Below, one piece after another: positions 13,263 through 32,596 of a stretch of DNA of 32,815 bases. A model generated the notes under the pieces. That model made no database searches and was not told the DNA's origin. It was given only the letters and a program-made list of their open reading frames with translations. This stretch comes from Prevotella sp. (lineage in GTDB: Bacteria; Bacteroidota; Bacteroidia; Bacteroidales; Bacteroidaceae). The translations under genes were made by a program, and so were the position numbers. The DNA is taken from positions 1-32,815 of the forward strand of contig JAFUZD010000138.1 of NCBI GenBank assembly GCA_017476785.1, read 5' to 3'. Position 1 is the first letter of the stretch. Each line of letters opens with the position of its first letter.

Positions 13263-14318
13263 ATGAACTACAACGATTACAGAGACGAGGCGGTGGAGCT
13301 GCTGAAGCAACTTATCAGCACACCCAGCATCAGCCGCGACGAAGAGGCGGCAGCGACTGTTTTTGCCCATTTCATCGAGGAAAAGGGGCTGAAATATGAG
13401 CGCATCAAGAACAATATCATCGTCAGCGGGAGAGCGGACAGCACCAAGCCGACGCTGCTGCTGAATGCGCATATCGACACGGTGAAGCCTGTCAGCTCGT
13501 ACACACGCGACCCTTACACGCCGCAGGTGGAGGACGGACGGCTCTACGGACTGGGTAGCAATGACTGCGGCGGCGGACTGGTGAGTCTGTTGCAGGCATT
13601 CCGCATACTGAGCAAGAAGGACACACCTTATAATATAATATATGTGGCCTCGGCCGAGGAGGAGGTGTCGGGGCGCGACGGCATCGAGCTGGTGCTGCCA
13701 CGGCTGCCCCACATCGACGTGGCCATCGTGGGCGAACCGACGGGGATGCAGCCGGCCACGGCGGAGAAAGGATTGATGGTGGTGGATGCAACGGCACACG
13801 GCCGCAGCGGGCACGCGGCGCGCAACGAGGGGCTGAACGCCATCTACGAGGCGATGGACGACATTGCGTGGTTGCGCAGCTATCGGTTTGAGCGCGAGAG
13901 CGAGCTATTAGGAGCGGTGAAGACAACGGTGACCGTCATCAATGCCGGGACGCAGCACAACGTGATACCCGACGAGTGCCGCTTCACCATTGACATCCGC
14001 ACGAATGAGTGCTACACGAACGAGGAGGTGTTTAGCATCCTCGATGCTCAGATGAAGAGCGAGCTACGGGCGCGCTCGTTCCGCCTGTCATCGTCGCACA
14101 TCGACGCCAACCACCCGCTGGTGCAGCGTTGTCGGGCTATGGGGATGCAGCCGTTCGGTTCACCTACACTGAGCGACCAAGCGCTGATGCCATTCCCCTC
14201 GCTGAAACTGGGTCCCGGGCAGTCGGCTCGCAGCCATTCGGCCGACGAATACATCGAGATAGACGAGATAGGACAGGCTATCAGCACGTACGTAAAACTA
14301 ATTTCAATTGAGAATTGA
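13263..14318 (+). CDS. M20 family metallo-hydrolase (ArgE-like deacylase)
   Basis: A 351-residue zinc aminoacylase/peptidase-fold enzyme. Metal and catalytic motifs are NAHIDTV (H70, D72), GLGSNDCGGG (D at the bridging position), ASAEEE (E132-E134) and VGEPTG, with the dimerisation-domain HGRSGHAA segment between. In this family the closest roles are deacylation of N-acyl-ornithine or N-acyl-citrulline in arginine synthesis. Bacteroides is known to use succinylated intermediates, so an N-succinyl substrate is possible; this is inference. The last codons and stop are formed by the AATTGAG heptamer repeat. The gene is monocistronic and convergent with the EnvC-like gene. Confidence 0.88.
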   Translation: MNYNDYRDEAVELLKQLISTPSISRDEEAAATVFAHFIEEKGLKYERIKNNIIVSGRADSTKPTLLLNAHIDTVKPVSSYTRDPYTPQVEDGRLYGLGSNDCGGGLVSLLQAFRILSKKDTPYNIIYVASAEEEVSGRDGIELVLPRLPHIDVAIVGEPTGMQPATAEKGLMVVDATAHGRSGHAARNEGLNAIYEAMDDIAWLRSYRFERESELLGAVKTTVTVINAGTQHNVIPDECRFTIDIRTNECYTNEEVFSILDAQMKSELRARSFRLSSSHIDANHPLVQRCRAMGMQPFGSPTLSDQALMPFPSLKLGPGQSARSHSADEYIEIDEIGQAISTYVKLISIEN

Positions 14319-14467
14319 GAATTGACAATTGAGAATTGGGAATTGGGGGAATTAGGAATTGAAAATTGAGAATTGAGAATTTGCTATCGCCAAAGTTGGG
14401 AGAGCGGCAGCAAATTCTCAATTCCCAATTCTCAATTCTCAATTAAAAGATTCTCAATTAAAAGATT
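14306..14467. repeat. Inverted arrays of AATTGAG / CTCAATT heptamers
   Basis: The left arm (14306-14384) holds about ten tandem or near-tandem copies of AATTGAG. After an unrelated spacer (about 14385-14412), the right arm (14413-14467) holds CTCAATT copies, two of them followed by AAAAGATT. The arms can pair into a long AT-rich hairpin. The stop of the M20 gene (14316-14318) and the stop of the EnvC-like gene (14466-14468) both fall within or at the edge of the arms. It may act as a bidirectional terminator between the convergent genes. Confidence 0.9.
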
Positions 14468-21698: not shown

Positions 21699-22523
21699 TT
21701 ATAGGGCATACACTTGATTCTGCACAAATTGTGCCCATTCCATCGGTGTTTTCGACTTATCGAAGGTCTGCCACGGAATAGGTTTGCCAATCTTCACATC
21801 GAAGCTCTTGCCCACGTTTTTGTACATTTCATCGACGAGGAAGAGCATTGCCAGATTGAAGTTCAGGCACTTGTCCGAGAAGTTGGCCAGCCGATAGAAG
21901 AAATCGGAGTTCTGACCGCCGAAATGGATGGGGATGACGTCGCGCTGATAGTCCACGCTCTTGGTGATGAACGTCTTGGACCACGGGATGTCGCGGACGA
22001 CTCCGCCGTGGCGGCGCGAGCAGATACCGGCGGGAAACATCAGCATCTGGTTGTCGCTCTCGAAGCCCGCCTTCACCATTGCCGGGAACGAACGTCCCTG
22101 CCTGCCCGTCTTGTTGATGGGGATGCAGAGCGGTGCCAGCCCGGGCAGATTCATCAGCAGGTCGTTGACCAGATAGCGAAAGCGACCGCCGAAATGGCGA
22201 CCGATGACAGCCCCCAGTGCCACGCCGTCGACCCCGCCCAGCGGATGATTGGAGACGATGGTGTAGAGCCGGCCGTCGTCGGGTGCCGGCAGGTGTTCCC
22301 GCCCGCTGACACGGAGCGTCATCTTCAGATAGTCGACGCAGGCTTCGAGCCATTCCACGCCCGTCTTGTCGCGCGACTCCCAAAGGAATGCATTGACATC
22401 GTCCTGATGGGCAACGCGTTTGAGCCACGACACGGCAAAGCCGGGCACGAACTTGGCTTTCGCGCCCATCTTGCTGTTCAGAATATTTTCGATGTCGATA
22501 GTTTTCTCCGTAATTTGGTTCAT
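21699..22523 (-). CDS. glsA: O-acyltransferase for glycine lipids (PlsC/LPLAT family)
   Basis: A 274-residue lysophospholipid-acyltransferase-like protein. The catalytic block is SNHPLGGVDG (H93, D99), the NHPxGxxDG form of the LPLAT motif, followed by INKTGRQGRS and MFPAGICSR (the usual FPEGxxS position). Together with glsB it is expected to make di-acylated glycine or serinolipid membrane lipids, adding the second acyl chain. The frame is open to a TTG at 22532, but ATG 22523 follows a promoter box at 22553-22560 and fits the family. Confidence 0.82.
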   Translation of the reverse strand: MNQITEKTIDIENILNSKMGAKAKFVPGFAVSWLKRVAHQDDVNAFLWESRDKTGVEWLEACVDYLKMTLRVSGREHLPAPDDGRLYTIVSNHPLGGVDGVALGAVIGRHFGGRFRYLVNDLLMNLPGLAPLCIPINKTGRQGRSFPAMVKAGFESDNQMLMFPAGICSRRHGGVVRDIPWSKTFITKSVDYQRDVIPIHFGGQNSDFFYRLANFSDKCLNFNLAMLFLVDEMYKNVGKSFDVKIGKPIPWQTFDKSKTPMEWAQFVQNQVYAL

Positions 22524-22552
22524 AACTCGCAAGCGCTTCCACTAACAAGTTG

Positions 22553-22560
22553 CAAAAATA
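22553..22560 (-). promoter_or_regulatory. Promoter -7 box of glsA-glsB
   Basis: Minus-strand TATTTTTG, followed by CAAC as in other promoters of this window, lies 29 bp upstream of the glsA ATG. The -33 box is not clear. Confidence 0.6.
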
Positions 22561-22634
22561 ACGATTTTGTTCGAAATATTCTACGATTTTACTTAAAAAA
22601 TGTTCAAAAAGTGTATTTCTGTACTTCTTACACC

Positions 22635-23004
22635 GACCGCGGAGCGTTTCTCCGGAGACCGGGGAGCCTTTCTCCGAAGCCCGCGGAGCGATGCTACGGA
22701 GGCCGCGGAGCGACGCTCCCGAGGCTGCGGAACATTGCGGGCAAAGGCTGGGGCCGAAGCCATAGCAGCCAAAACGTCCCGAGAAACGGCCAAAACGACG
22801 GAATTGCCGAGGAGGCCGAAGCCCCCGAAAAGGCCGACAGCGCGGAGAGCAGCCAGCACGCCAATGAGCCCGGATGCCACCCCCATCGCCCGCAGATGCC
22901 CCACTCTTCACACGAAATCGCCCCACTCTTCACCCGGAAATACCCCATTTTCTACGCCAAAACGCCCCACTTTTCATACAAAAGTACAACCCACTGAATT
23001 TCAG
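22635..23004. repeat. Array with 22-bp periodicity upstream of mraZ
   Basis: The 605-bp gap between glsA and mraZ contains about 370 bp built on a 22-bp step. Units starting at 22635, 22657, 22679, 22701 and 22723 share GCGGAGCG-n3-CTCCGA, itself a small inverted repeat. Units at 22895, 22917, 22939 and 22961 share GCCCCACTCTTCAC, with CCCCA at exactly 22899, 22921, 22943 and 22965. The middle (22745-22872) is more diverged but has recurring CCAAAACG and GGCCGAAGCC at near-multiples of 21-22 bp. The frames that run through it are repeat artefacts. No gene is seen between 22524 and 23128. Confidence 0.85.
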
Positions 23005-23053
23005 GACGTTAAGATTCGAGTTTAAAGAAAAATAAAAATATTTCTTAAAATTT

Positions 23054-23083
23054 GTGGAGAAAGGTGGAGAATTGTGGGGAAAA
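23054..23083 (+). promoter_or_regulatory. MraZ operator, three direct 10-bp repeats
   Basis: GTGGAGAAAG, GTGGAGAATT and GTGGGGAAAA follow each other with an exact 10-bp step (GTGG at 23054, 23064, 23074). MraZ is known to bind TGG-type repeats one helical turn apart upstream of its own gene. The repeats cover the position of the -33 element, which fits repression by blocking RNA polymerase. Confidence 0.85.
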
Positions 23084-23088
23084 ATGAT

Positions 23089-23096
23089 TATCTTTG
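23089..23096 (+). promoter_or_regulatory. Promoter -7 box of the division/cell wall cluster
   Basis: TATCTTTG is followed by CAACC as at the tRNA-Pro promoter. It lies 32 bp before the mraZ ATG and just behind the MraZ repeats. Confidence 0.75.
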
Positions 23097-23128
23097 CAAC
23101 CGAAGTCTTTATTAATAAAGAGGAACGT

Positions 23129-23572
23129 ATGCGTTTTATCGGTAATATAGAAGCCAAAATCGACACAAAGGGCCGCGCCTTTCTGCCAGCCACCTTCCGA
23201 CGGGTGTTGCAGGCAGGCGGCGAGGAACGTCTGGTGATGCGCAAAGACATCCACCAGCCGTGCCTCGTGCTCTACCCCGAGTCGGTATGGAACGCGCAGC
23301 TCGACGTGCTGCGGGCACGGCTCAACCGATGGAACCGACAGCACCAACAGCTGTTCCGCCAGTTCGTAAGCGAAGTGGAGCTCCTGACCCTCGATGCCAA
23401 CGGCCGCTTTCTCATTCCCAAGCGTTACCAGCGTATGGCGTCAATCGAGCAAGACATCAAGTTCGTAGGGCTGGACGACACCATCGAGATATGGAGTGCC
23501 GCCGAGGCCGAGAAAGCCCAGATGCAGGCAGAGGAGTTCGGCGTGGCATTAGAAGAGTTGATGGGCGAATAA
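23129..23572 (+). CDS. mraZ: Transcriptional regulator MraZ
   Basis: A 147-residue double AbrB-fold (SpoVT-AbrB) DNA-binding protein, first gene of the dcw cluster. Two related half-domains are seen: GNIEAKIDTKGRAFLPATFR (about 5-24) and LLTLDANGRFLIPKRYQ (about 87-103), each with the D-x-x-GR-x-x-(I/L)-P signature. MraZ forms rings and represses the dcw promoter in other bacteria. The frame extends upstream to 23054, but that part covers the operator and promoter; ATG 23129 with AGGAAC ahead is the start. Confidence 0.96.
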   Translation: MRFIGNIEAKIDTKGRAFLPATFRRVLQAGGEERLVMRKDIHQPCLVLYPESVWNAQLDVLRARLNRWNRQHQQLFRQFVSEVELLTLDANGRFLIPKRYQRMASIEQDIKFVGLDDTIEIWSAAEAEKAQMQAEEFGVALEELMGE

Positions 23573-32533: not shown

Positions 32534-32596
32534 AAATTTACGCGTGAATTTGCCAAATTTACGCGTGAATTTGCAGAATTTACGTGTAAATTCATT
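32534..32596. repeat. Three 21-bp palindromic direct repeats before murG
   Basis: Units start at 32534, 32555 and 32576. The first two share AAATTTACGCGTGAATTTGC; the third is diverged (AATTTACGTGTAAATTC). Each unit is centred on an ACGCGT or ACGTGT inverted repeat. The second unit supplies the likely -33 TTTG of the murG promoter. Confidence 0.9.

Follow-up and report, generated by a model that had tools for sequence, protein, structure and literature searches.

Arrays of short sites at a two-turn spacing in intergenic DNA of Prevotella

Intergenic DNA of Prevotella carries arrays of short sites that follow one another at 21 or 22 bp, and the arrays form families that are unrelated in sequence and share one plan: the sites are few and mostly constant in number, many have dyad symmetry, and they follow at a step of about two turns of the DNA helix. 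The families are dispersed in the genome, lie in non-coding DNA and are accompanied by a genus-wide peak at a lag of 22 bp. The anatomy of the arrays is firmly established, and from it we infer a mechanism: tentatively, we favour families of two-turn-spaced sites that would be bound cooperatively on one face of the DNA and would have spread as non-autonomous repeats. The arrays were encountered in the window, that is, the whole 32,815-nucleotide stretch of contig JAFUZD010000138.1 (Prevotella sp., assembly GCA_017476785.1) that was analysed.

A preliminary description of the window had reported a single array of about 370 bp before the division and cell wall genes, with a 22-bp step kept through two sequence types. 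The step is borne out in both types. Autocorrelation at lag 22 gives an identity of 0.80 in array A (22635-22731) and 0.66 in array B (22898-22986). The corresponding value for dinucleotide shuffles is about 0.29, and none of 1000 shuffles attains that of either array; Tandem Repeats Finder also lists both (B with 7% indels). The single array does not survive: the 166 bp between the two (22732-22897; annotated as an aperiodic stretch at 22735-22897) have a lag-22 identity of 0.23, below the shuffle mean, which rules out one continuous 370-bp array, and because the middle is without the periodicity, the region holds two arrays, each with about four units. The units do differ from one another, and array A is unlike a CRISPR, as had been proposed, in that its repeats have diverged and the 9-bp linkers are partly conserved, as opposed to near-identical repeats and unrelated spacers. 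Decay of a former coding sequence, raised as a possibility at the same time, finds no support in the position of array A, which lies between genes (by our own gene finder), or in the location of comparable arrays across the genus, given below. Rfam covariance models run over 22300-23400 returned no family; a single miRNA match, located within mraZ, stayed below threshold (E=0.059).

Array A belongs to a non-autonomous element of 109 bp with four sites, here called family A, whose copies are dispersed in the genome and lie mostly between genes. In the window, the element spans 22626-22734 on the forward strand and consists of a left end (TCTTAC, degenerate), four 13-bp dyad-like sites joined by 9-bp linkers and a right end (GGAACA), the forward-strand sites being A1 GGAGCGTTTCTCC (22641-22653), A2 GGAGCCTTTCTCC (22663-22675), A3 GGAGCGATGCTAC (22685-22697) and A4 GGAGCGACGCTCC (22707-22719). 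By a BLAST-type search, the genome from which the window comes (G000; 2.72 Mb in 139 contigs, 89% complete) contains 44 matches to array A, corresponding to 36 loci including the window, with eight arrays matched twice; the unit pattern has 88 forward and 83 reverse hits in that genome, compared with 0 and 0 for a reversed control. Automatic scoring found neither more nor fewer than four of the 13-bp sites, GGAGCnnnGCTCC, in 32 of the 36 loci, with every step in these exactly 22 bp. The exceptions at one threshold are L039 and L040 with three units, L041 with five and L042 with two, and at another L015 and L041 with five and L039 and L040 with three. Thirty-three elements were aligned, L034, L039 and L040 having been left out after inspection and the remainder stacked gap-free by construction. 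Pairwise identity over their 79-bp core averages 0.73 and reaches 0.94 at most, and the retention of four units despite this divergence argues for phased sites. In this alignment, column information is concentrated within the 109 bp, where the linkers have the plus-orientation consensus nnAGGCYGC and the ends the consensus TnTTYC and GRAACA; most columns outside hold less than 0.3 bits, with a maximum of 0.55 bits 6-10 bp to the left of the element. The ends are inverted in the consensus, at a length of only 6 nt, and resemble fading copies of the sites. No target-site duplication was found at family A (longest shared flank word, mean 4.74 versus a null of 4.71, sd 0.22), as is also true of many genuine mobile elements; with neither a target duplication nor a pair of empty and filled sites found, mobility is presumed.

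Ends inverted in consensus, together with a group of three or four sites each about 22 bp long, are also what solitary ends of a Mu/Tn7-like transposon could offer, since the transposase-binding sites of Mu and Tn7 are about 22 bp long and come in threes and fours. We consider this origin very unlikely, because the sites of family A are dyad-symmetric in consensus and stand in a solitary cluster, whereas Tn7 and Mu ends are asymmetric sites flanking cargo, and because of the missing target duplication.

The small hairpins attributed to the GGAG...CTCC units fare unevenly: the family A consensus is indeed palindromic, but individual units often are not, the dyad test on array A itself gives p=0.10, and support from covariation is absent. 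The units have a direction, and both GGAG-CATCR-CTCC and its complement occur, with GTAG as a variant of GGAG in some. A structured RNA had been among the meanings proposed, and its most concrete form would be arrays of RNA hairpins at transcript ends that protect or terminate mRNA, as has been proposed for REP elements. In the 33 elements, 519 of 660 cells show pairing of the GGAGC/GCTCC stems, but this is below the mean of column shuffles (529.8, z=-2.3), and a single cell of the 660 is compensatory; the same shuffles give z=-4.6 for the linkers and z=-4.3 for the element taken as one palindrome, so that family A lacks covariation support for either local or long-range structure. The likeliest cause of pairing below the shuffled level is the presence of directional units in both orientations, and this mixture makes the column shuffle an imperfect test. 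A looser set of 259 units had some stem and linker pairs above column shuffles; it was dropped because it included chance arrays in coding DNA.

Genomic context bears on the same question. By our ad hoc codon-based gene finder, 34 of the 36 family A copies lie outside predicted genes and two overlap one; the gaps that hold the copies are convergent in 12 cases, tandem in 11 and divergent in eight, and three are without a neighbour on the contig. In stretches of the same genome, 5 of the 49 gaps that measure 80 bp or more are convergent (34 are tandem and 10 divergent); by comparison convergent gaps look over-represented, and some copies come after terminator-like hairpins (by eye), both of which fit hairpins at transcript ends, whereas the eight divergent gaps do not. 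Taken together, we regard the RNA explanation as improbable, and the mixed gene context indicates no single regulatory role for family A. A block of 65-74 bp, with a terminator-like hairpin by eye, adjoins family A at L009, L014, L024, L026 and L042, and flanks of about 600 bp are common to L014, L024 and L042, which suggests that some copies moved with segmental duplications. Arrays of another kind, GAGnnCTCn at a 9-bp step, were also seen in the 195 kb searched: 14 tracts in nine of the 36 family A loci (L011, L013, L016, L017, L019, L022, L027, L035 and L039), each within 175 bp of the element.

The same genome has at least two further families, C and D, which surfaced in stretches chosen irrespective of arrays. 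Family C is TGTTT-N9-AAACA at 22 bp, with 76 forward pair hits genome-wide (control, 2), and has four units in 11 of the 13 distinct arrays read, the other two showing a weak fifth. Family D is AATTCTCGCGAGAATT at 21 bp, its 5-nt spacers varying in sequence from one to another, and has 115 pair hits genome-wide (control, 0); three units were counted in 14 of the 15 arrays read, the remaining one being doubtful. The 13 and 15 arrays are the first-returned loci plus those in other sampled stretches, out of all hits. A variant of family D occurs in the window at 32535-32592, with AATTTACGCGTGAATT twice and AATTTACGTGTAAATT once at 21-bp steps. Comparison of families A, C and D showed no sequence common to the three. 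The window also contains, at 14306-14467, two 7-bp repeats close together, AATTGAG (10.6 copies) and AATTCTC (4.6 copies), the latter being also a half-site of family D.

Array B is a separate case. On the minus strand of 22898-22986, it comprises four hexamers, GTGGGG or ATGGGG (CCCCAC or CCCCAT on the forward strand), starting at 22899, 22921, 22943 and 22965. Downstream lie a putative MraZ box (23054-23079, forward strand; GTGGAG-N4-GTGGAG-N4-GTGGGG, with 10-bp steps), which is named after known MraZ boxes such as that of E. coli, and mraZ itself (23129-23572, forward strand; PF02381, E=1.1e-17). The placement before mraZ noted in the preliminary description is therefore correct, but array A is not specific to it, as the 35 other loci of the same genome rule out a special placement of family A at mraZ; the suggested mraZ-specific role is unsupported for A, whereas B involves a conserved motif upstream of the gene. 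The box consists of three GTGGRG repeats at 10-bp steps in 26 of 30 mraZ loci and of two in the other four. CCCCAC, the reverse complement of the box hexamer GTGGGG, was counted in 109 of 110 mraZ loci (one was too short upstream), 92 of which have at least two box repeats near the gene; in 28 of these 92 it lies 86-92 bp upstream of the first box repeat (about 23 are distinct, with five pairs identical in sequence), compared with no locus in any 7-bp bin from 30 to 85 bp and with 5, 2, 2, 1, 1 and 1 in the bins above 92 bp. The window has a CCCCAC at this conserved place (22965-22970, minus strand), 89 bp upstream of the first box repeat, and it is the last unit of array B, the other three lying upstream at 22-bp steps. 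On these grounds, array B is best read as probably having arisen when a conserved site, similar to the MraZ box but inverted, was copied locally. The likeliest ligand of the array would be MraZ, and the conserved CCCCAC could be a second MraZ site; whether MraZ controls the division genes from upstream could be tested on array B. Array B resembles the MraZ box (PMC8475190) in its hexamer and in lying beside the box of mraZ, and differs in being inverted, in having 22-bp rather than 10-bp steps and in its distance of 89-155 bp upstream of the box. A second array like B was found nowhere else in the genome. In another Prevotella genome, two arrays of CGTGACnnnnGTCACG-like palindromes with 22-bp steps lie upstream of mraZ (L207, 2070-2355).

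The step extends well beyond this genome. We sampled one 20-kb stretch per genome in 20 further members of the genus, in assemblies chosen for large contigs, and filtered low-complexity and short-period units before counting local self-matches by lag. Lag 22 yielded 32 arrays, compared with 1, 8, 1 and 7 at lags 20, 21, 23 and 24, with harmonics at lag 44 (22) and lag 66 (15) and no lag-22 array in dinucleotide shuffles of the same stretches; the peak persists at thresholds of 11, 13 and 16. All 32 arrays are non-coding, in sequence that is only 16% non-coding, and they occur in 13 of the 20 stretches and in 26 of the 141 gaps of at least 100 bp. Ten stretches from other genera of the family gave six lag-22 arrays (5 of 50 gaps), an excess that is weak because lags 20 and 21 gave three and four, and 150 kb of E. 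coli gave none. Within the genus arrays, adjacent units have a median identity of 0.74, and between stretches the best unit match is usually about at the shuffled level, although some units are clearly related (20/22). It is thus the distance that is kept rather than the sequence, and alignment searches miss such arrays for that reason. Dyads at p<=0.05 were found in 13 of 28 genus arrays versus 6 of 38 at control lags, and in 5 of 23 arrays of named mraZ loci, which is not above that control; the test failed for three of the five lag-22 arrays of the window's own genome, including both in the window, and for all four of other genera. Runs of four consecutive stems, sought at periods of 17-30, occurred only at period 22 in the own-genome loci (9) and in the loci of one relative, G062 (9), and there were none in the 17 loci of another, G069.

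The strongest rival to cooperative binding is a copying process in which replication or repair in Prevotella duplicates 22-bp intergenic stretches, leaving functionless by-products that later diverge by substitution. It accords with unit sequences that are mostly unrelated between stretches while lag 22 stays sharp, with long or near-identical arrays (L227 with six units at 0.90, L232 with eight and L233 with seven) and with array B, which repeats a site that is single in relatives. For B, the continued slippage that had been suggested earlier is accordingly supported, but it fits A poorly, A being a dispersed element of fixed length. Alone, copying would leave unexplained the mostly fixed unit number of families A, C and D, their dispersal to many loci and the surplus of dyads among the genus arrays, and as a full account we consider it unlikely. 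It may nonetheless generate the raw arrays, as array B suggests, and both processes may hold.

Cooperative binding on one face is the simplest explanation because the two-turn distance is common to unrelated sequences. Each site would be bound by a dimeric DNA-binding protein, and a two-turn step, whether 21 or 22 bp, would align the sites along a single side of the helix and allow a cooperative protein assembly; mis-spaced arrays would be lost, and the families would spread within a lineage, at times along with repeat blocks that adjoin them. A transposase is one candidate for the protein; others are factors that organise the chromosome or have a regulatory function. Same-face binding, one of the options in the preliminary description, is thus the best fit to the two-turn step, the unrelated families and the mostly fixed unit number, with the protein itself being what we infer. 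Against it, dyads are not universal, as 15 of the 28 genus arrays and 18 of the 23 arrays of named mraZ loci fail the test. A broader reading, which is possible but doubtful, is that Prevotella intergenic DNA has a general, sequence-indifferent two-turn register, in which many independent array families at 21-22 bp, some with a fixed number of units, would be kept by an undescribed machinery sensitive to spacing or structure. The arrays allow a direct test of whether selection acts on DNA geometry in these bacteria or an unusual copying process has left its mark.

Searches of the open-access literature found no paper on 22-bp arrays in Prevotella and no description of a step common to unrelated families with a fixed number of sites. 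The closest published element found for family A comes from Porphyromonas gingivalis, which belongs, like Prevotella, to the order Bacteroidales. This element, the BrickBuilt MITE, is described as intergenic and dispersed, with 19 copies in one strain, 23-nt tandem repeats numbering 1 to 22.8 per copy, a leader and tail of up to about 300 nt, IS5-like 12-nt terminal repeats and terminators or polyadenylation sites predicted near 10 of the 19 copies; tandem repeats of 22, 23 and 41 nt had been reported earlier in P. gingivalis W83 (PMC4596501). The intergenic dispersal and tandem repeats are common to both, and inverted ends may be, whereas the Prevotella arrays have a step of 22 or 21 bp, a mostly fixed number of units and several unrelated families; the BrickBuilt leader and tail are unmatched in family A, whose flanks stay at or below 0.55 bits and whose ends have 6 nt, and by eye the published 12-nt ends show no likeness to those of family A.

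Arrays of the GGAG type are rare among relatives. With up to two mismatches allowed, 8 of 398 genus genomes carry the pattern, the window's own among them, and the linkers in the relatives differ from those of family A; a DNA-level search with array A found no match in 59 other genus genomes. The exact family A pattern is absent from viral_contigs and from genome_contigs, a set that possibly lacks the own genome. With up to one mismatch, 201 family genomes yielded the own genome, G481 and G575, and of the 188 among them from other genera two match; the match in G575 may be due to chance, as a reversed control also matched two of the 188 (G404 and G581). Elements in G069 read as having five sites and ends near TTTTAC and GTAAAA, the units as printed in its 17 loci numbering five in eleven, six in four, seven in one and eight in one, counts that weak outer units inflate. 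In G062, the units as printed number seven in six of 11 loci, eight in two, and six, nine and 11 in one each. This range of 6-11 counts against cooperative binding, as do 23-bp steps in relatives: ten loci of G172, G325, G118, G204 and G140 have 34 steps that measure either 22 or 23 bp, and 7 of these measure 23. The G062 arrays (L096-L098, L110-L117) start, by eye, at a conserved hairpin, TTCTCCCAAA...TTTGGGAGAA, and their units fade farther off, which makes the element polar.

Family A also resembles REP/BIME elements in being short, dispersed, intergenic and palindromic and in forming mosaics with other repeats, and it differs in being a head-to-tail array with a two-turn step, in a genome with no Y1 match (PMC2817692, PMC3733652). 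Its 36 loci, nearly all outside predicted genes, are dispersed extragenic palindromes in the REP sense. Mobilization of such elements by a RAYT (Y1) transposase could be read from PF01797 matches (E<=0.001) in all seven other GGAG-positive genomes, versus 196 of 396 overall, and from 22-bp arrays in two of the eight Y1 loci examined. We nevertheless judge it highly improbable: the own genome, which has the most GGAG hits, has no PF01797 match (an uncertain absence at 89% completeness), and the eight Y1 loci are without a GGAG-type pair, their 22-bp arrays differing in sequence. The two arrays of other sequence in the surroundings of Y1 transposase genes are both in G140, at 2106-2193 of L134 and 182-241 of L135.
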